This document shows positions 1,780 to 24,484 of a stretch of 44,099 nucleotides of DNA, in pieces. Both the position numbers and the translations under genes were made by a program. The stretch is from an uncultured Bacteroidales bacterium (GTDB lineage: Bacteria; Bacteroidota; Bacteroidia; Bacteroidales; Bacteroidaceae): contig CACYOC010000020.1 of the NCBI GenBank assembly GCA_902775975.1, positions 1 to 44,099 of the forward strand. Reading direction: 5' to 3'. Below the pieces are notes generated by a model, which worked only from the letters and a program-made list of their open reading frames with translations, was not told the DNA's origin and searched no databases. Numbering within the stretch: position 1 is the stretch's first letter; every line of letters starts with the position of its first letter.

Positions 1780-4242
1780 TTACTTCACGACTTTCTTTCC
1801 ATGAACGAGGTAGATGCCATGCTGTCTCATGGTGCTGACCTTACGACCCATGAGGTCGTAGATGTCGCCAGTAGCAGTCCGGGCGGCAGGCTGGACGGTA
1901 TGGATGGCAGTGGGAATATCGGAAATGCATTCATAGGCCATCGGATATTCGAAGAGACACTCTACTTCCCCTTTAACCAGTTCACCTACTGCCAGTCTGT
2001 AGCTCTGTCCCTTCACCAAGTTTGGGAAGGTGAAAGTGCCAAAGACAGGCTTCTCGTCTTTAAACTGACACTCCACTTTCATGTTGAAGGGGTCTTTAGG
2101 GTCAACGCTATAATCGTACTTTTCAAGTTCATTGTCGTATTGTTCAAGCATGATGTAGAGAGTCTTGGTGCAGGGAGCCTCGTCGGTAGTCGCCATCACA
2201 TACTGACCTTGCAGTGTGTTGTCGGTCAGCGGCTCGGGATCGTCTTCTTTTTCCTTTTGTTTCTCAGTGTCGATGTTCGTTACGCTGTAGCTGAGTGACG
2301 TTCCCGTAACGAGCACTTCGTCCTCACCCTCGCTGAGAAGATTGTACTCGCTGTTGTATTGCTCAACATCGTTGGTAAGGAGACCGATGTAGTGGGTTCC
2401 TATTGCTTCGGGAACGAAGGTGAGATAGAAGTCGCCCGACATACCCCTATCAATGCCCATGCCTGTGGCGTTGCATGCGGTGTATGCCTCACCGTCAGTG
2501 CTTGTCCATAGTACCGCAGCCCTGTTTTGTGAGTTAGAATTGTTGGTGGCGTTAAACTTCAGGGTGACCGTCTTATAGACCTTTGCTTCGCCGTCAACAG
2601 TCATGGAGTTGACTTTAGTGTCGCCTACCCTATTATGATCGTCGAAGCTGGGCCATGCCGTCAGCGTATTACCATCGAGATATAACAGTATGTTATAGGT
2701 CTCGCCCATGTAACAGACGTACCACTTGTCGGTATTCTTCTCGCCATGGCAGTCGCGGAACAGCCAATGTACCTCGTAGGTGCCGTCGGGAACGTCTTTG
2801 GGAATGGTGATGCTAAACTGCATGCGCTTTCTCTCGCCAGAGAGTATCGTGGCCTCAATCATCCTTATCTTGGGTTGTGCAAAGACGTACGATTTCTTCT
2901 CGCGGTCGTAGAGGTTCCACGCGATATCGTACTGTTTGTCCATATAGGGGGGTAATTCCCTGTCAAAGAGCACGCCCTGGATGAAGGCAGGAAAGTCTTC
3001 CGTCGCATTAGTACGCTTGAGGACTAACTGGTCCAGTTTGGTGTATTGCTTGTCCATCAGGTCTATTCCGTAAATGCCCACCTTGTTTACGCCATCGGCA
3101 GGATCAGGGTTAGCAGGCTTCTTAAATCCATATAGGAAGGAGGTGTCGAGATTGTATCCGAAGCTCACCTTCTCGCCTTTCTCCTCTGGATTGTCGCTGT
3201 TGAGGACAGTGAGCAAGAAATAGCCGTCACACTGTCCGCCCCATCCCCAGTTGACGTGGTAATAACCGTTCTTATATCCGTCAATGACAAAGGTGTGACC
3301 ACTCGTCTTAAAAGTCTTGGAGTCCATGGCTGATGCAGAGTAAATGACGGGGCGTCCTGCCTTCAGTTCGGTGTACAAGAAGTCCTCGTAATATTGATAG
3401 GTACAAGTGTTACGATAGAGATGACCTATCTCACTGTAGCCGAAATAGAGTCGTGCTGCCTCGCTGGTAGCGTTAATCCAGGCTTCTGAAGACTCAGAGG
3501 AATAAACCGTTCCCTGTGCATAGCCAGCATATTTCACCAGCTTTGCAACTTCGGTAAGGCCCTCAGACTGATCGTCCTTGCTGTATTTCTCGCCCATGAT
3601 GCTCCAGTTGAAGGACGTGGCAGGCAGCGCCTGCAGATGCTGTCTATACTCTCTGGCACCACCACTTTCATTATACATATCCTGTTCAGGAATGCCACGC
3701 GGCATCGCTCCTTCCGGATACTTCACCGTTGCCAGCACCTGTGCCAGCGCAATTGCTGGGCAGCCGGAGATAGACCGCTCGCCAGTCTTCTGGTCCATAG
3801 GCAGAAGCTTGTTGTAAGGTGCCGGCTGATCCCACTTGAAAGGAACGAGAGGCTTCACCTCTTCGTAGTTGGTGAGGGCTACCGTCTTAAGACTGCCATG
3901 GTTCTTCAGCGCTTGTATCTGCTGCTTGTAACTCTCAATCCACGCTTGTGCAGCGGGATTCACCTGCTGCTCGTCGAATGCGTTGCCGTCCGACCAGCCG
4001 AGCACAGGCGCTGCCTGGTCGTCAGCACTAACCACCACGAAGCCGCCGTTGCCATTGAAAACATAGAGTTCGTCACTCTCGTAGGCCATCTCTACGGAAC
4101 TGTTGGCAGAGCTGGCCCTGTTGGTTGCTTTCTGGGCAAAGAAGTCCTTGGCAATGTTCGCAGCCTTCTTCTTGCTGACGGGGTTTGCCATCAGCCCCAC
4201 GGTTAGCGTTAAAAGCGTAAGAATAGTAAAATGTCTCTTCAT
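1780..4242 (-). CDS. Streptopain-like C10 family cysteine peptidase, secreted
   Basis: The 820-residue product starts with a signal peptide (about residues 1-19). A propeptide-like region (about 22-140) contains GGFVVVSADDQ, as in Spi/C10 pro-domains. The peptidase domain has the nucleophile in SGCPAIALAQ (Cys161), the catalytic His in SGHTFVIDGY (His316), and the HVNWGWGG block (329-336), all typical of peptidase family C10 (streptopain, interpain, PrtT). Roughly 400 residues of beta-rich, unrecognised domains follow. The end resembles a T9SS-type sorting signal: IYDLMGRKV, then GIYLVHGKKVVK. It would act outside the cell or on its surface to degrade host or dietary protein. It is much longer than the roughly 400-residue streptopain zymogen because of the C-terminal extension. 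Confidence 0.9.
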   Translation of the reverse strand: MKRHFTILTLLTLTVGLMANPVSKKKAANIAKDFFAQKATNRASSANSSVEMAYESDELYVFNGNGGFVVVSADDQAAPVLGWSDGNAFDEQQVNPAAQAWIESYKQQIQALKNHGSLKTVALTNYEEVKPLVPFKWDQPAPYNKLLPMDQKTGERSISGCPAIALAQVLATVKYPEGAMPRGIPEQDMYNESGGAREYRQHLQALPATSFNWSIMGEKYSKDDQSEGLTEVAKLVKYAGYAQGTVYSSESSEAWINATSEAARLYFGYSEIGHLYRNTCTYQYYEDFLYTELKAGRPVIYSASAMDSKTFKTSGHTFVIDGYKNGYYHVNWGWGGQCDGYFLLTVLNSDNPEEKGEKVSFGYNLDTSFLYGFKKPANPDPADGVNKVGIYGIDLMDKQYTKLDQLVLKRTNATEDFPAFIQGVLFDRELPPYMDKQYDIAWNLYDREKKSYVFAQPKIRMIEATILSGERKRMQFSITIPKDVPDGTYEVHWLFRDCHGEKNTDKWYVCYMGETYNILLYLDGNTLTAWPSFDDHNRVGDTKVNSMTVDGEAKVYKTVTLKFNATNNSNSQNRAAVLWTSTDGEAYTACNATGMGIDRGMSGDFYLTFVPEAIGTHYIGLLTNDVEQYNSEYNLLSEGEDEVLVTGTSLSYSVTNIDTEKQKEKEDDPEPLTDNTLQGQYVMATTDEAPCTKTLYIMLEQYDNELEKYDYSVDPKDPFNMKVECQFKDEKPVFGTFTFPNLVKGQSYRLAVGELVKGEVECLFEYPMAYECISDIPTAIHTVQPAARTATGDIYDLMGRKVSTMRQHGIYLVHGKKVVK

Positions 4243-17786: not shown

Positions 17787-17818
17787 TTTGCAGATTCAAA
17801 GAATTATACGTACCTTTG
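17787..17818 (+). promoter_or_regulatory. Promoter of the trp operon
   Basis: TTTG (17787-17790) and TACCTTTG (17811-17818) are separated by 20 bp, a perfect fit to the Bacteroidetes -33/-7 consensus. The leader-peptide ATG lies 33 bp after the -7 box. Confidence 0.85.
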
Positions 17819-17851
17819 TCGCCGTAAATCAAAAACAAAATTAGGCACAAC

Positions 17852-17902
17852 ATGAAAACAATGAATAATAATTGGTGGTGGCGTAACTCGAGATTCAAAT
17901 AG
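17852..17902 (+). CDS. trpL: trp leader peptide
   Basis: A 16-codon ORF reads MKTMNNNWWWRNSRFK and then TAG. The three consecutive Trp codons (UGG UGG UGG, 17873-17881) are the hallmark of a tryptophan attenuation leader: charged tRNA-Trp levels would decide whether the ribosome stalls there. It lies 33 bp after a consensus promoter and 123 bp before trpB. It matches the general description of Bacteroidetes 'Bacteroid-trp' leaders. Confidence 0.9.
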   Translation: MKTMNNNWWWRNSRFK

Positions 17903-17988
17903 TCGCGGGGTACGTAGCCATTATATATTGTTTTCTAAACAGACAAAAGAAGAGGCTCGTCGTTAACGCGACGGCCTCTTCTTCTGTT
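17902..17988 (+). promoter_or_regulatory. trp attenuator: alternative antiterminator and terminator hairpins
   Basis: Terminator form: AAGAAGAGGC (17947-17956) plus CGTCG (17958-17962) pair with CGACG (17969-17973) plus GCCTCTTCTT (17974-17983), extendable by AACAG/CTGTT. Antiterminator form: GTCGCG (17902-17907) pairs with CGCGAC (17967-17972), and ACG-t-AGCC (17912-17919) pairs with GGCTCGT (17954-17960), nested in one helix. The two forms share 17954-17960 and 17967-17972, so they exclude each other. A ribosome at the leader stop codon would cover 17902-17907 and favour termination; one stalled at the Trp codons would leave it free. The terminator lacks a strict U-tract but its 3' arm is U-rich. 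Confidence 0.85.
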
Positions 17989-18025
17989 AATGACCAACGA
18001 AAGAAATAAACAAAACTTAAACATC

Positions 18026-19219
18026 ATGGGATATTTAGTAGATAACAAAGGCTTTTACGGAGAATTCGGCGGTGCTTACGTACCCGAGATTCTCTATGCT
18101 ACGGTAAAGAAATTGCAAGAAGAGTATTTGCCCATCATCGAGTCCAAGGAGTTTCAGGACGAGTACCGCGCCCTGTTGCGCGACTACGTCGGCAGACCAT
18201 CGCCCCTCTATCTGGCACAGCGCATGAGTGAGAAATACGGTTGCCAGCTGTATCTGAAGCGCGAAGATCTGAACCACACCGGTGCTCACAAAATTAACAA
18301 CACCATCGGTCAGATACTCCTGGCAAAGAAGATGGGTAAGAAACGCATCATCGCCGAGACGGGTGCCGGACAGCACGGTGTAGCGACAGCAACGGTCTGT
18401 GCGCTGATGAACATGCCCTGCGTCGTCTATCAGGGAGCTCTTGACGTGGAGCGACAGCACGTCAACGTGGAGCGTATGAAGATGTTAGGAGCCGAGGTTC
18501 GTCCCGTTAAGACTGGTAACTGGACACTGAAAGACGCCACGAACGAGGCTATCCGCGACTGGTGCTGTCATCCTGCCGACACCTTTTATATTATTGGAAG
18601 CACGGTAGGTCCACACCCCTACCCCGACATGGTGGCACGACTGCAAAGTATCATTTCCGAGGAAATCAAACAACAACTGCAGGAAAAAGTAGGTCGCGAC
18701 TATCCTGACTACCTCATGGCATGCGTCGGCGGTGGCAGCAATGCTGCTGGAACCATCTACCACTATATCGACGATGAGCGCGTGAAAATTGTTCTGGCAG
18801 AGGCCGGTGGACAGGGAGCAGACACAGGGCATACGGCAGCAACCATTCACGCCGGACGACTGGGTATCTTGCATGGGGCAAAGACGCTGGTCATGCAGAC
18901 CCCCGACGGACAGATTATCGAGGCGGAAAGTATCTCGGCAGGTCTCGACTATCCGGGCATCGGTCCCATGCATGCCAACCTTGCCGTGCAGCATCGCGCC
19001 ACGGTCTATAGCATCAACGATGATGAAGCCGTCAAGGCCGCTTTTGAAATGACACGTCTGGAGGGCATCATCCCTGCTTTGGAGAGTGCGCACGCTGTTG
19101 CCGCCCTATCGAAGATGACATTCAAGAAGGACAATGTGGTGGTGCTGACCGTCAGCGGTCGAGGCGACAAGGACATAGAGACTTACCTGAACTATCAAGA
19201 CCAACAAAAAGAACAATAA
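18026..19219 (+). CDS. trpB: Tryptophan synthase beta chain
   Basis: The 397-residue PLP enzyme condenses indole with serine to give tryptophan, in complex with TrpA. The PLP lysine lies in HTGAHKINN (Lys89), followed by ETGAGQHGVA, the phosphate-binding GGGSNAAG and ESAHAV. The length equals the family norm with the start at MGYLVDNKGF; an in-frame ATG 36 bp upstream would add an atypical polar extension and lies at the terminator edge. It is the first structural gene of the operon, unlike E. coli where trpB is near the end. Only 2 bp separate it from trpE. Confidence 0.97.
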   Translation: MGYLVDNKGFYGEFGGAYVPEILYATVKKLQEEYLPIIESKEFQDEYRALLRDYVGRPSPLYLAQRMSEKYGCQLYLKREDLNHTGAHKINNTIGQILLAKKMGKKRIIAETGAGQHGVATATVCALMNMPCVVYQGALDVERQHVNVERMKMLGAEVRPVKTGNWTLKDATNEAIRDWCCHPADTFYIIGSTVGPHPYPDMVARLQSIISEEIKQQLQEKVGRDYPDYLMACVGGGSNAAGTIYHYIDDERVKIVLAEAGGQGADTGHTAATIHAGRLGILHGAKTLVMQTPDGQIIEAESISAGLDYPGIGPMHANLAVQHRATVYSINDDEAVKAAFEMTRLEGIIPALESAHAVAALSKMTFKKDNVVVLTVSGRGDKDIETYLNYQDQQKEQ

Positions 19220-19221
19220 CA

Positions 19222-20613
19222 ATGAAGACATTTCAATATACCACCACGAGTCAGACCCTTCTGGCTGACCTCCATACGCCGGTAGGTGTCTATCTGCGGC
19301 TGCGCGACCTTTATCCACAGAGTGTGCTGATGGAATGCTGCGACTATCACGACAAGGACAGCGCCCGCTCCTTTATCGGCATCCACCCCATTGCCAGCGT
19401 TGCCATCAACCACGGCACGGCGACGATTCACTATCCGGACGGAACGACGCATCAAGAGCCGCTGTCAGAGCGTTTCAGCACGGCGCAAGCCATCCATGCA
19501 CTCACCGACAACATCCAAGTGGAGGGGGCTGACGCCTCAGTCTTCGGACTCTTCGGCTACACCTCATTCAATGCGGTGCGCTATTTCGAGAGCATTCCCG
19601 TAAAAGACGAGACACAGGAGAAGAACGACGCTCCCGACATTCTTTATATATTATATAAGGTCGTCATCGTCTTCGACCATCACAACAACCAACTGAAGGT
19701 GGTGTCACTTGCCGGCGACAACGAGATAACAGAGGTGCTGAAAGCCATGAACAAGGCCAACGTGAAGACCTACGACTTCCACCCCATAGGCGATGTCATA
19801 TCCACGCTGACCGACGAAGAACACAAGGCGAACATCCGCCGGGGCATCCAGCACTGTCTGCGCGGCGACGTGTTCCAGATTGTACTGTCACGCCGTTTCG
19901 TACAGCGCTACGAAGGCGACGACTTCAAACTCTACCGTACCCTTCGCAGCATCAATCCCTCACCCTACCTGTTCTATTTCGACTTCGGCGGTTTCCGCAT
20001 CTTCGGCAGCAGTCCCGAGACCCACTGCCGTATCGAAGGTAGGAAGGCATTCATAGACCCCATTGCCGGCACGACCAAGCGTACAGGCGATAAGGAGAAA
20101 GACCGTCAGGGAGCAGAGTTCCTGCGCAACGACCCCAAGGAGAATGCCGAGCACGTCATGCTGGTGGATTTGGCTCGCAACGACCTGAGCCGTAACTGTC
20201 ACGATGTCAACGTCGATTACTACAAGGATATACAGTACTACTCGCACGTCATCCATCTGGTGAGCAGGGTCAGCGGAGAACTGGATGCCGACAAAGACCC
20301 TATCCAGGCATTCATCGACACGTTCCCTGCCGGCACACTAAGCGGAGCACCCAAGGTGCGCGCCCTGCAACTCATCAGCGAATACGAGCCACACAACCGT
20401 GGCGCATACGGCGGATGCATCGGCATCATCGGACTGGACGGCAGTCTGAACCAGGCCATCACCATCCGCACCTTTGTAGCCCGCAATGGTGAGCTATGGT
20501 TTCAGGCCGGTGGCGGCATCGTTGCCAAGAGCAACGAAGACTACGAACTGCAGGAAGTCAACAACAAGTTAGGAGCGCTCCGCCGCGCCATTCTCCAAGC
20601 AGAAACCCTATAA
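19222..20613 (+). CDS. trpE: Anthranilate synthase component I
   Basis: The 463-residue chorismate-utilising subunit forms anthranilate using ammonia passed from TrpG. N-terminal residues LMECCDYHDKDSARSF fall at the position of the LLES feedback-inhibition motif, with Cys in place of the usual Ser. The C-terminal chorismate-binding domain shows DPIAGTTKRTG, DKEKDRQGAEFLRNDPKE, EHVMLVDLARND, DTFPAGTLSGAPKVRA and GAYGGCIG. It starts 2 bp after the trpB stop. A 9-bp repeat array begins exactly at its stop codon and fills the gap to trpG. Confidence 0.96.
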   Translation: MKTFQYTTTSQTLLADLHTPVGVYLRLRDLYPQSVLMECCDYHDKDSARSFIGIHPIASVAINHGTATIHYPDGTTHQEPLSERFSTAQAIHALTDNIQVEGADASVFGLFGYTSFNAVRYFESIPVKDETQEKNDAPDILYILYKVVIVFDHHNNQLKVVSLAGDNEITEVLKAMNKANVKTYDFHPIGDVISTLTDEEHKANIRRGIQHCLRGDVFQIVLSRRFVQRYEGDDFKLYRTLRSINPSPYLFYFDFGGFRIFGSSPETHCRIEGRKAFIDPIAGTTKRTGDKEKDRQGAEFLRNDPKENAEHVMLVDLARNDLSRNCHDVNVDYYKDIQYYSHVIHLVSRVSGELDADKDPIQAFIDTFPAGTLSGAPKVRALQLISEYEPHNRGAYGGCIGIIGLDGSLNQAITIRTFVARNGELWFQAGGGIVAKSNEDYELQEVNNKLGALRRAILQAETL

Positions 20614-20682
20614 GACCCATTAGACCTATAAGACCCATAAGACCCATAAGACCCATAAGACCCATTAAACCCATTCAACCCA
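20611..20682 (+). repeat. Eight 9-bp tandem repeats between trpE and trpG
   Basis: The unit TAAGACCCA or close variants is repeated eight times (20611-20682), starting at the TrpE stop codon and ending 2 bp before the trpG ATG. In the trpE frame the first and several later units begin with TAA, giving tandem stop codons. Confidence 0.85.
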
Positions 20683-20684
20683 TC

Positions 20685-21244
<560 letters not shown>

Positions 21245-21248
<4 letters not shown>

Positions 21249-22243
21249 AAGAGATTTTAGCAAAACTGCTCAACCACGAGATGCTGTCTCGTGAAGAAAT
21301 GAAGGCCGTACTCATCGGCATCACTCATAGTGAATATCCCACCGAGCAGATTACCGCCCTGCTGACCGCCCTGCAGATGCGCGGCGTCACCGTCGATGAA
21401 CTGTTAGGATTCCGCGATGGTATCTTAGAGACTGGCGTTCCCGTTCCCCTGAACTGCGACCGCTATATCGACGTCGTGGGAACGGGCGGCGACCGCAAGA
21501 ACACGTTTAACATCTCCACCACCTCATGTTTCGTCATTGCCGGCGCAGGGTATAAGGTGGCCAAACACGGCAACTATGCCGCCACCTCGACCAGCGGTGC
21601 ATCAAACGTCATCGCACAGCATGGTGTGAAGTTCACCGACAACATCGACCAGCTCAACCGCTGTCTCGACGAAGCAGGCATCGTCTATCTGCATGCACAG
21701 CTGTTTGCCAAGGCGATGAAGTTTGTAGGTCCCATCCGCAAGGCCCTGCAGTTTCCCACCATCTTCAACCTGTTGGGGCCCATCGTCAACCCTAGTCAAC
21801 CGCAATGTCAGCTGCTGGGTGTTGCCAATCTCGACCAGATGCGCCTGTACCACCAGGTATATCAGCGCATCGGCATCGACTATGGCATCGTCAACAGCAT
21901 TGACGGCTACGACGAGATATCGCTCACCGGCGACTTCAAAGTCACTACCAACAACTACGAGCGTTTGTTCTCTCCCGCCGACCTTGGCTTTGAGCGCGCT
22001 CTACCCGAAGAGTTGGTGGCAGGAGCCACGGAGGAAGAGGCAAAGGCTATCTTCGATGCCGTCTTGGAGAACAAGGCACTGCCGGCACAGAAGAACATTG
22101 TGATGGCAAACGCAGCCTTCGGTATTCAGGTGCTGGAGCGTGGCAAGAAGAGCATCGAAGAGTGTATCGCCATTGCCCGCGAGAGTATCGACAGCGGTGC
22201 TGCCCTGCAAACATTCAAGAAGTTCGTGGAACTGAACAGTTAA
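21245..22243 (+). CDS. trpD: Anthranilate phosphoribosyltransferase
   Basis: The 332-residue enzyme transfers phosphoribose from PRPP to anthranilate. Visible motifs are DVVGTGGDRKNTFNIST (PRPP-binding loop), AKHGNYAATSTSGASNVI, GPIRKALQFPTIFNLLGPIVNP, and DGYDEISLTGD. The length is typical. It overlaps trpG by 4 bp, and trpC follows 6 bp later. Confidence 0.96.
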
Positions 22244-22249
22244 TCGAAT

Positions 22250-23065
22250 ATGGACATCCTACAGGAAATAATCGCACACAAGTGCCAGGAGCTACCCGCC
22301 ATCCGTGCCGCATTAACTGTTGGCGGTGGTTCTGCCGCCGCCCCCACAGCTTCCTCCCCAAAGCCCTCGCTGCGGCAGGCGCTCCTCGACTCGCCGACGG
22401 GCATCATTGCAGAGTTCAAGCGTCGCTCGCCGTCGAAGGGTTGGATCAAGGAAGAAGGGCGTGCCGACATCATTCCGATGAGTTATCAGGAAAACGGGGC
22501 TGCCGCCGTGAGCATCCTTACCGACGAGCACTACTTCGGAGGCTCGGACGACTTCATCCGAACAGCGAGGCAAAGCGGTGTCACACTGCCCATCCTCTAC
22601 AAGAACTTCGTCATCGACGAGGCACAGCTGTATGCTGCCGTCCGTTGCGGAGCGTCTGCCGTACTGCTCATTGCCGCCTGTCTGACAAAACAGGAGTGTA
22701 AGACACTGTTGGACAAGGCACACGCATTAGGACTGGAAGTGCTGCTCGAGATGCACAGCGAGGAAGAACTGTCGTACGCCAAACTGGGACCCGACCTTTG
22801 CGGCATCAACAACCGCCACCTGGGTTCCTTTGTGACGGACGTCGAGACCTCGTTCCGACTCGCGGAAAGCCTTCGTTCCGTATGTGGCGATAGCATCGCC
22901 ACAAACCAGACCGTGCTGGTCAGCGAGAGCGGCATCTCGCATCCGGACACTGTCCGCGCACTGCGTCAAGCAGGTTTCCGAGGGTTCCTCATCGGCGAGA
23001 CGTTCATGAAAACCGCCAACCCCGGCACCGCCCTTCACGATTTCATCAACCAGCTAACCCATTAG
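22250..23065 (+). CDS. trpC: Indole-3-glycerol phosphate synthase
   Basis: The 271-residue TIM-barrel enzyme converts CdRP to indole-3-glycerol phosphate. Key segments are IIAEFKRRSPSKGWI with the catalytic Lys, SILTDEHYFGGSDDF, LPILYKNFVIDEAQLYAA, LEVLLEMHSEEEL, GINNRHLGSF and VSESGI. Residues about 23-38 (GGGSAAAPTASSPKPS) are a low-complexity stretch in the variable N-terminal region. It is a single-function TrpC, not the TrpC-TrpF fusion of enterics. A 9-bp-type repeat separates it from trpF. Confidence 0.95.
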   Translation: MDILQEIIAHKCQELPAIRAALTVGGGSAAAPTASSPKPSLRQALLDSPTGIIAEFKRRSPSKGWIKEEGRADIIPMSYQENGAAAVSILTDEHYFGGSDDFIRTARQSGVTLPILYKNFVIDEAQLYAAVRCGASAVLLIAACLTKQECKTLLDKAHALGLEVLLEMHSEEELSYAKLGPDLCGINNRHLGSFVTDVETSFRLAESLRSVCGDSIATNQTVLVSESGISHPDTVRALRQAGFRGFLIGETFMKTANPGTALHDFINQLTH

Positions 23066-23096
23066 CCCCATGAGTCCCATAAGTCCCATAAGCCCT
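23060..23096 (+). repeat. 9-bp repeats between trpC and trpF
   Basis: Four CATAAGTCC-like units run from the trpC stop codon to the trpF start. They are close to the TAAGACCCA units between trpE and trpG, read in a shifted phase. Confidence 0.75.
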
Positions 23097-23708
23097 ATGA
23101 TGATCAAGGTTTGTGGCATGCGCGATGCCGACAACATTCGTGCCGCAGAAGCCCTCGGCATCGACCTCATGGGGTTCATTTTCTGGCCGAAATCCAGTCG
23201 CTATGTCAGCGAGAAGCCTGCCTATCTGCCGACGCAATGCCGGCGCGTGGGAGTGTTCGTCGATGCGGCTGTTGACGACATCTGCCAACACGTGGAGGAC
23301 TATGCCCTTGACGTCATCCAGCTGCACGGCAAGGAGACACCCGCCTACATACAGGCATTACGTTCATTGTATGGCGATTCCATCACCATCATCAAAGCGT
23401 TCAACATTGCCACAGCAGAGGACTTGCAACAGACCGCGTGCTACGAGGGACAGGCCGACTACTTCCTCTTCGACACGAAGGCACAGCAGGTGGGAGGCAA
23501 CGGCACGAAGTTCGACTGGACGGTGCTCGACAGTTACGCTGGTGAGACGCCCTTCCTGCTTAGCGGCGGCATCGGTCCTGAAGATGCAGAACAAGTACGG
23601 GCATTCCACCATCCATGGTGCATCGGCATGGACCTCAACTCTCGTTTCGAGCTCGCACCAGGGCTCAAGGATATACAACAACTCAAAACATTCATCAAAG
23701 CACTATGA
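23097..23708 (+). CDS. trpF: Phosphoribosylanthranilate isomerase
   Basis: The 203-residue TIM-barrel enzyme performs the Amadori rearrangement of PRA to CdRP. The motifs are IKVCGMRDADNIRAA (catalytic Cys in KVCG), MGFIFWPKSSRYV, VIQLHGKE, FLFDTKAQQVGGNGTKFDW, LSGGI and the catalytic Asp in GMDLNSRFE. Two adjacent ATG codons are available (23097, 23100); upstream in-frame sequence is only repeat. It overlaps trpA by 4 bp. Confidence 0.95.
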   Translation: MMIKVCGMRDADNIRAAEALGIDLMGFIFWPKSSRYVSEKPAYLPTQCRRVGVFVDAAVDDICQHVEDYALDVIQLHGKETPAYIQALRSLYGDSITIIKAFNIATAEDLQQTACYEGQADYFLFDTKAQQVGGNGTKFDWTVLDSYAGETPFLLSGGIGPEDAEQVRAFHHPWCIGMDLNSRFELAPGLKDIQQLKTFIKAL

Positions 23709-24484
23709 ATAAGATCAATCAACTGTTCTCCGAGAACAAAAACCACAAGCTACTGTCATTGTATTTCTGTGCCGGAGCACCTACGCTGGACGGCACTGCC
23801 GACGTCATCCTGACGCTACAGCGAGGAGGCATCGACATGATAGAGGTAGGCATTCCCTTCAGCGACCCCATGGCCGACGGTCCCGTCATTCAGGACGCTG
23901 CCACCAAGGCACTGAGAAACGGCATGACCCTGCGCACGCTCTTCACACAACTGGCAGCTGTCAAGGAGCAAGTCAACATCCCGTTGGTGCTCATGGGCTA
24001 TCTGAACCCCATCATGCAGTACGGCATCGAGGCCTTCTGTCAGTCGTGTGCCGACAGTGGCGTCAGCGGAGTCATCATTCCCGACCTGCCCTTCGACGAC
24101 TACCTACAACTGGTCAAGCCCGTTGCCGACCGCTACGACCTGCGCGTCGTCATGCTCATCACTCCCGAGACTTCGGAGGAGCGCATCCGTTTCATCGACG
24201 AACATACCGACGGCTTCATCTACATGGTTTCGTCGGCAGCCGTCACGGGTACTCAGCAGTCGTTTGACGAACAGAAGCAGGCCTATTTCCGACGCATCAA
24301 CCAGATGCAGCTGCGCAATCCTCGCATGATAGGCTTCGGCATCTCGAACCGTCAGACGTTAGAGTCGGCCCAGCAAAATGCCGCAGGAGCCATCATCGGT
24401 TCTAAGTTCGTCACACTGTTGGACGAGGCGCACGGCAATGCCGAAGAAGCGCTGAACCGCCTATACCATAGCCTTTCGGAATAA
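23705..24484 (+). CDS. trpA: Tryptophan synthase alpha chain
   Basis: The 259-residue TIM-barrel subunit cleaves indole-3-glycerol phosphate to indole, which is channelled to TrpB. The catalytic Glu is in MIEVGIPFSDPMADGP, with the Asp of SDPMADGPVIQ. Further motifs are LVLMGYLNPIMQYG, GVIIPDLPFDDY and GFGISNRQT. The ATG overlaps the trpF stop. It closes the operon. No clear terminator follows; instead a 22-bp tandem-repeat array starts 22 bp after the stop. Confidence 0.96.
   Translation: MNKINQLFSENKNHKLLSLYFCAGAPTLDGTADVILTLQRGGIDMIEVGIPFSDPMADGPVIQDAATKALRNGMTLRTLFTQLAAVKEQVNIPLVLMGYLNPIMQYGIEAFCQSCADSGVSGVIIPDLPFDDYLQLVKPVADRYDLRVVMLITPETSEERIRFIDEHTDGFIYMVSSAAVTGTQQSFDEQKQAYFRRINQMQLRNPRMIGFGISNRQTLESAQQNAAGAIIGSKFVTLLDEAHGNAEEALNRLYHSLSE

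Follow-up and report, generated by a model that had tools for sequence, protein, structure and literature searches.

The window, a stretch of 44,099 nucleotides from an uncultured Bacteroidales bacterium (GenBank assembly GCA_902775975.1, contig CACYOC010000020.1), very probably carries a ribosome-mediated transcription attenuator of a trpBEGDCFA operon, in which the 5' strand of the antiterminator (strand 2) would mainly take the loop and the 3' arm of the terminator. The leader probably senses the tryptophan supply via the translating ribosome, as in E. coli, and its comparison with related leaders suggests that it is a functional attenuator. The anatomy of the leader, the covariation of its helices, the position of its stop codon and the mutual exclusion of its folds have been established by computation. 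The Bacteroid-trp family and the logic of attenuation are already known. The apparently unexpected feature is the binding of strand 2 to the loop and 3' arm, which is predicted for leaders from other families of the phylum as well.

The genes trpB-E-G-D-C-F-A lie directly downstream of the leader, all on the forward strand. The first gene of the operon, trpB (18026..19219), scores 566.7 bits with TIGR00263 (cut-off 392), trpG (20685..21248) 198.7 bits with TIGR00566 (cut-off 121), trpD (21245..22243) 296 bits with TIGR01245 (cut-off 199), trpC (22250..23065) 260.7 bits with NF001377 (cut-off 260) and trpA (23705..24484) 228 bits with TIGR00262 (cut-off 102). Even though trpE (19222..20613; 417 bits with TIGR00564, cut-off 518; placed by operon position) and trpF (23070..23708; best 167 bits with the phosphoribosylanthranilate isomerase models, cut-off 216) score under the NCBI equivalog cut-offs, their identities are clear from family and place. 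The gap between trpE and trpG (20607-20684) contains short tandem repeats, one frame of which reads RPI repeats, and the start of trpF (23073-23096) also has short tandem repeats (SPI repeats). The window belongs to an incomplete genome assembly, 2.7 Mb long and split into 76 contigs. The nearest named relatives of its TrpB come mostly from uncultured Prevotella or Prevotellaceae assemblies, many of them from the rumen, with other Bacteroidales assemblies also among them, and from Prevotella communis E15-14, which has a leader of the window's type, MKQLFNAWWWRNSRFK, ending at a stop codon. A TrpB 89% identical to that of the window is found in a MAG titled Verrucomicrobia bacterium, which is probably a mislabelled or mixed assembly.

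The promoter, read from the sequence, consists of a -33-like element, TTTG (17787..17790, forward strand), and a -7 element of the Bacteroidota type, TAnnTTTG (TACCTTTG, 17811..17818, forward strand). TAnnTTTG, which we take to be the Bacteroidota promoter consensus and on which the promoter of the window is assigned, is present 5' of the leader ATG in 84 of 88 genus leaders, while 3.5 are expected from base shuffles; the consensus promoter proposed earlier from the sequence alone is of the Bacteroidota kind. By a loose test, 84 of the 88 also have a TTG some 16-26 nt before the -7 element. The leader peptide ORF (MKTMNNNWWWRNSRFK, 16 codons, 17852..17902, forward strand) runs from the ATG at 17852 to the stop codon TAG at 17900-17902 and includes three adjacent Trp codons at 17873..17881, the putative sensor.

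Strand 2 (17902..17919) starts at the leader stop codon and takes part in two structures. In the 1:2 protector hairpin (17873..17923), which is defined by folding and by two-sided changes in homologs, it pairs with the Trp codons. An outer extension of this hairpin (17854-17863 with 17926-17935) is seen in the window and was left out, as homologs were not counted for it. In the antiterminator, GTCGCG at 17902-17907 is complementary to CGCGAC at 17967-17972, forming the outer helix, while ACG(T)AGCC at 17912-17919 is complementary to GGCTCGT at 17954-17960, forming the inner helix. The intrinsic terminator is a hairpin at 17947..17983 with its loop at 17964-17967 and a T-rich tail, placed by folding and by the consensus register of 88 leaders. 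On its 3' side the outer helix uses the terminator's last loop base and apical 3' arm, and the inner helix uses a segment of the terminator's 5' arm. Every coordinate given in the sequence-only reading for the ORF, the Trp codons, the stop codon, the terminator stem and the two antiterminator helices is correct. Its terminator and antiterminator stand, while the third helix, the 1:2 protector hairpin, was overlooked. Relative to the consensus register, the terminator of the window has a bulged U at 17957, left by an apparent one-base deletion. The T-tail is mediocre, with 7 T in 12; the median genus leader has 8 T among the 12 bases counted from the stem base, and 22 of the 88 have fewer than the window.

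All three competing structures, 1:2, 2:3 (antiterminator) and 3:4 (terminator), are present in the leader, with energies of about -21.2, -16.5 and -25.7 kcal/mol, and the free leader folds into the 1:2 hairpin that holds the Trp codons and strand 2. The terminator-like stem noted earlier at 17947-17983 is confirmed by its stability, which has a z-score of -6.4 and is matched in none of 200 shuffles. The complete leader (17820-18030) has a z-score of -6.7, also matched in none of 200. The excess stability of the antiterminator stretch at 17900-17973 (-19.9 kcal/mol, z -2.6, 1 of 200 shuffles) is moderate compared with the large excess of the terminator.

Of 200 genus genomes, 188 have a TrpB match, which in some is no more than a distant TrpB-like protein. 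The analysis covers 130 stretches upstream of trpB, one per genome and including that of the window, four of which are shorter than 450 nt at contig ends. In 89 of these stretches trpB is preceded by a leader with two or more Trp codons side by side (one, L061, added by hand), and the run of Trp codons is three or four in 82 and two in 7. Since the leaders were chosen for adjacent Trp codons, the constancy of these codons in alignment A1, which contains 88 distinct genus leaders, is no evidence. The covariance model R1, built from the 89 leaders, was run on 40 further genus genomes without such a leader before trpB, on the genome of the window and on one outside genome. Among the 40, R1 finds a strong leader (E <= 2e-20) in 38, a weak one in one (G101) and none in one (G189), and the leader directly precedes trpD in all 29 loci inspected. 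The trp blocks of the genus have two orders, leader-BEGDCFA as in the window and leader-D-C ... A-B-E-G (L192-L221 without L195; L222-L237). The order trpB-trpE-trpG occurs in 16 of 16 genus genomes checked, with trpA directly before trpB in 11 of the 16. Gene blocks swap in these operons, and the leader keeps its front position. The weak match in G101 (L363:251-435) has two separated Trp codons (YWRWQ) before trpB and keeps GTGAG together with CTCAC in the terminator loop.

Covariation, whose absence had been named beforehand as the finding that would count against an attenuator, is present in both of the helices proposed, as judged from the 88 genus leaders. In its consensus register the terminator has 94.1% of its cells paired, against 42-56% when slid, and 10 of its pairs change on both sides; a consensus-derived structure does tend to beat its slid versions. 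A count in the window's own register gave 71% because the window lacks one base, and it was dropped for the consensus register. The antiterminator, as originally drawn, has 84.6% of its cells paired (27-45% when slid) and 8 pairs changed on both sides; its outer helix is paired in 93.0% and its inner helix, whose GCC:GGC core is near-invariant across the genus leaders, in 77.4%. The 1:2 hairpin is 74.9% paired (33-52% when slid), with 10 pairs changed on both sides. For each of the three structures the observed covariation score is reached in none of 500 shuffles; one of five measures for the 1:2 hairpin, that of further pair types, is unexceptional (88 of 500).

The best single signal comes from the strand-2 base 17906, which has two partners, the third base of a codon (17890) in the 1:2 hairpin and 17968 in the antiterminator. 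The codon carrying 17890 is Ser in 87 of the 88 leaders and Pro in one. The codon base and the strand-2 base are A and U in 44 leaders and G and C in 43, L107 being the sole exception. At the third place, a strand-2 C pairs with G in 41 of 43 leaders, and a strand-2 U with A (24) or G (21) in 45. On the trpB DNA tree, whose bootstrap is unsettled and in which the long rows L107 and L118 join, strand 2 changes 11 times, supported branches require 6 of these changes, and the codon base switches together with the strand-2 base in 6 of 6 independent pairs (sign test, p 0.031). This tree was used because the TrpB protein tree, with 12 changes, 2 of them forced by starred branches, is weakly supported. 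U-type leaders extend the antiterminator into the loop, with columns 44-120 paired in 44 of 45 and columns 45-119 in 42 of 45, while C-type leaders, including that of the window, mostly lack the extension (12 of 43 and 6 of 42). Column 120 of the alignment is U in 44 of 45 U-type leaders and in 4 of 43 C-type leaders.

The stop codon of the leader peptide is located on strand 2, so that a ribosome terminating there would cover this strand. Relative to the strand-2 core, the stop codon is at -4 in 36 leaders, where UAG or UAA sits just before UCG, and at +2 in 32, in 31 of which it is UGA inside CGUGAG. An in-frame stop lies between -4 and +8 nt from the core in 76 of the 88 leaders, against 6 of 176 for the other two frames. 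The antiterminator is allowed with the 3' edge of the ribosome footprint at 17902 and forbidden with the edge at 17904, a step that falls at the end of the stop codon. Folding thus bears out the suggestion that a ribosome finishing the leader would block the 5' strand of the antiterminator, since an edge past 17902-17904 abolishes the outer helix.

With a ribosome placed on the Trp codons of the window, the antiterminator is dominant in folding at emerged 3' ends from 17956 to 17976 and the terminator from 17978, while without a ribosome, or with one at the stop codon, the terminator is formed by 17972. In this timeline the inner helix forms before the others. If RNA polymerase hides about 14 nt of the transcript, an emerged end at 17976 corresponds to an active site near 17990, past the hairpin, and the antiterminator would last about long enough. 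With each of the 88 leaders truncated where the outer helix ends, the antiterminator is above 0.5 in 74 with a stalled ribosome, in 11 when free and in none with a ribosome at the stop codon; the terminator tip exceeds 0.5 in 1, 67 and 76, respectively. The remaining 14 leaders have no antiterminator in the stalled fold by this simple mask test. Four columns past the outer helix, the stalled antiterminator is still favoured in 20 of the 88. In the full-length leaders the terminator prevails in 86 to 88 of the 88, whatever the ribosome state, the stalled antiterminator being retained in 2, and at equilibrium the full terminator of the window (-25.7 kcal/mol) beats its antiterminator (-16.5 kcal/mol). 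The choice between the two must therefore be kinetic.

We infer the stalling, the termination in the cell and the toehold order of events as follows. When charged tRNA-Trp is ample, the ribosome would reach the stop codon at 17900-17902 and cover strand 2 (17902-17919), and the terminator at 17947-17983 would form before trpB. In the absence of a ribosome, the 1:2 hairpin would hold strand 2 and the terminator would form again. When tRNA-Trp is scarce, the ribosome would stall at the three Trp codons, covering strand 1 and freeing strand 2. The freed strand 2 would use 17902-17907 to take the last loop base and the apical 3' arm (17967-17972), presumably taking the place of the terminator 5' arm; the inner contact of 17912-17919 with 17954-17960 in the 5' arm would assist, and RNA polymerase would read through. 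In other Bacteroidota leaders strand 2 would also pair with several loop bases, a possible toehold. Since the loop is transcribed before the 3' arm, pairing with the loop could give strand 2 a head start. The window leader is a hybrid, in which one loop base is used and a contact with the 5' arm is added.

The preference of strand 2 for one side of the terminator was assessed by duplexing it with the terminator parts of its own leader and of other leaders and permuting the means; L253, which has no hairpin, and L374, L378 and L379, which have no WW leader, were dropped from the sets. The own loop and 3' arm are bound better on average, the observed mean being reached in 10 of 2000 permutations in the order (n=28), 3 of 2000 in the genus (n=88) and 0 of 5000 in the order and phylum together (n=40). 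The own 5' arm is not bound better than foreign ones in any of the three sets (1762 of 2000, 393 of 2000 and 4874 of 5000). The own-specificity of the loop and 3' arm shows in the mean rather than in single leaders. Only 5 of 28 leaders of the order and 11 of 88 of the genus have their own loop and 3' arm among the best tenth of partners; for the own 5' arm these counts are 2 of 28 (order) and 18 of 88 (genus), so that by rank count the 5' arm is ahead in the genus. Unremarkable ranks of single partners are expected if many leaders are near-identical, which also limits the own-versus-foreign test.

The mean duplex energy in 40 leaders is -11.2 kcal/mol on the 3' side and -6.4 kcal/mol on the 5' side. 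The loop and 3' arm form the stronger duplex at 25 of the 28 loci from the order and at 11 of the 12 from the phylum, the exceptions being L257, L270, L274 and L375. Dinucleotide shuffles of single loci have low power, and are possible for 28 of 29 order loci and for 13 of 30 loci of a second set (29 type-B relatives and the window as L195), the rest being without a hairpin by the strict finder. These shuffles place the 3' contact at 10 of 200 or better in 9 of 28 order loci and the 5' arm in none of 28. In the second set 1 of 13 loci reaches 10 of 200, and the window itself gives 12 of 200. Because of this weakness, own and foreign partners were compared instead. In the order relatives the terminator loop often has CUC followed by ACGAC, the complement of GUCGUGAG at the stop codon of the leader. 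Compensated variants include CGGGAG with CUCCCG (L262) and UUGUGAG with CUCACAA (L279), and, in the phylum, CGCUGUGA with UCACAGCG (L373) and CCGGGG with CCCCGG (L376). The sequence-only reading had placed the antiterminator on both arms of the terminator. Of its two contacts, the one with the loop and 3' arm is the better supported; the inner one, with the 5' arm, is conserved, though the own-versus-foreign mean does not support it.

Beyond the genus, 149 genomes of the order were searched with R1, of which 77 have a match at E <= 1e-5 and 39 at E <= 1e-9, and in the phylum sample 15 of 118 genomes have one at 1e-8, the window's own genome being included in each count. Because R1 was built from one genus and run with strict filters, a genome that it misses may still carry a leader. 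Matches with E between 1e-5 and 1e-7 include terminator palindromes read on the reverse strand (G000:C20:17927-18032, minus strand), owing to which reliance in the order is placed on E <= about 1e-9. In the 29 best relatives from the order, the leader precedes trpB, trpE or a distant trpB-like gene (L277, L278). Among the 14 of the phylum sample besides the window's own, a WW leader precedes trpE in 12; at the loci in G451 and G419 (L374, L378, L379) both a trp gene and a WW leader are missing, and these matches may be due to chance. Several loci have features of their own. A leader of the window's kind stands before a TrpB-like gene (NCBIfam NF009057, 669.6 bits) at L361:950-1135. At L362:3140-3340 (minus strand), the leader has two separated Trp codons (WCW) and retains GTCGTGAG and CTTACGAC, and the gene behind it is 28% identical to TrpB. 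L256 has tandem WWW leaders before trpE, each with a terminator-like hairpin (G017:C131:3130-3246 and 3272-3406, minus strand). Upstream of the trp leader in L254 (766-804) is a match to the Rfam DUF805b RNA, with 38 bits just over the cut-off of 35.6.

If the geometry were the classical one of E. coli, strand 2 would act via the 5' arm (17912-17919 with 17954-17960), and its complementarity to the 3' arm would be a mere by-product of its resemblance to the 5' arm. The near-invariant core of the inner helix in the genus, the early formation of this helix in the folding timeline of the window and the 18 genus leaders with their own 5' arm in the best tenth are all in keeping with such a geometry. 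It is nevertheless unlikely, since own 5' arms are on average no better than foreign ones while own loops and 3' arms are, the mean duplex in the 40 leaders is stronger on the 3' side, and the loop bases, which are free of stem constraint, follow the type of strand 2, as seen in column 120.

The explanations that dispense with attenuation fare less well still. Control of translation, in which the hairpin would hide the start region of trpB rather than end transcription, could draw on the imperfect T-tail of the window and on an in-frame ATG at 17990, 6 nt beyond the hairpin. It is very improbable, because homologous trpB starts align with the ATG at 18026, 42 nt beyond the hairpin, the median leader has a better T-tail, and modules of the window's kind also stand before trpD, trpE or trpB-like genes. 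Slightly less credible again is an RNA that binds a protein or ligand (TRAP, T-box, riboswitch) to control the terminator, the WWW peptide being incidental; the cis-acting sequences examined offer nothing in its favour, and the in-frame stop codon is pinned to strand 2. Moreover, the window has no Rfam match at or above a gathering score, and the leader has E <0.01 only for Bacteroid-trp, itself below its cut-off. Strong hairpins are common by themselves, so the hairpin could be an intergenic terminator without a regulatory role; yet the hairpin is preceded by a promoter, covariation is seen in three helices that exclude one another, and other families of the order and phylum have related leaders before their trp genes, which makes this the least probable explanation of all.

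The attenuator with strand 2 mainly on the loop and 3' arm may belong to a wider group. It seems reasonably likely that the trp attenuators of Bacteroidota form a distinct, inverted class, in which strand 2 mimics the 5' arm, nucleates on a loop toehold and invades the 3' arm; that the window's leader, of the Prevotella type, is a hybrid in which the classical contact with the 5' arm is retained; and that the module has moved as a unit before differently ordered trp operons and trpB-like genes. Such an antiterminator, if true, means that the textbook geometry is not the sole way to build the switch, and its exact base pairs are now available for testing. Leader-peptide attenuation needs a ribosome close behind RNA polymerase. 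To our knowledge, the coupling of transcription and translation has been little studied in Bacteroidota, and the conservation of such a leader in that phylum speaks for coupling there on comparative grounds.

Among known RNAs, the window is closest to Bacteroid-trp (RF01692). The search with this model, proposed in the sequence-only reading, gives a full-length match (positions 1-131 of 131, at 17829-17961), while its score of 40.0 bits (E 0.0024) is under the gathering cut-off of 49, below the level of formal membership. Bacteroid-trp occurs before Bacteroidota trp genes, which the trpBEGDCFA operon fits, and it shares with the window the 1:2 hairpin with an agUCgUaAG strand 2 and the AAGGCUUGUC segment, which is the terminator 5' arm; presumably its members also have Trp-rich leader ORFs. 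The difference is that the Rfam model ends inside the 5' arm and is without the switching part, the whole terminator and antiterminator lying outside it. RF01692 at its cut-off matches 0 of 20 relatives and 5 of 20 order-level loci (20 of 29 scanned). These five (L252, L254, L255, L259 and L260, with 49.7-90.7 bits) are also matched by R1, and all show the duplex of strand 2 with the loop and 3' arm. Since R1 finds loci above the Rfam cut-off, the homology of the window to Bacteroid-trp is clear despite its 40 bits, and by sequence the window is a divergent relative of this family.

In the main text of Weinberg et al. 2010, Bacteroid-trp is named once, in a table (PMC2864571). A passage on Flavobacterium psychrophilum places a Bacteroid-trp element before the trp operon, so that element and position are shared with the window, and gives no antiterminator structure (PMC6414381). 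Another passage describes short ORFs of B. thetaiotaomicron that are reminiscent of leader peptides (PMC7366714). In the openly accessible literature searched, no description of an antiterminator on the loop and 3' arm was found.

The trp attenuator of E. coli (trpL) has tandem Trp codons, as the window does, and the same logic of 1:2, 2:3 and 3:4 structures controlled by the position of the ribosome. The Trp_leader model (RF00513) gives the window 14.4 bits against a gathering score of 41. By the same duplex computation, strand 2 of E. coli K-12 trpL binds the 5' arm with -10.9 kcal/mol and the loop and 3' arm with -4.9 kcal/mol, the reverse of the Bacteroidota leaders. As far as is known, classical antiterminators of other systems likewise use the 5' arm. 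The antiterminator of the window is not of this E. coli type, its contact with the terminator 5' arm being a minor one. With leader-peptide attenuators in general the window shares a short ORF with three Trp codons, and a terminator and an antiterminator that exclude each other according to the position of the ribosome, as seen in the folding masks of 74 of the 88 leaders and in the covariation.
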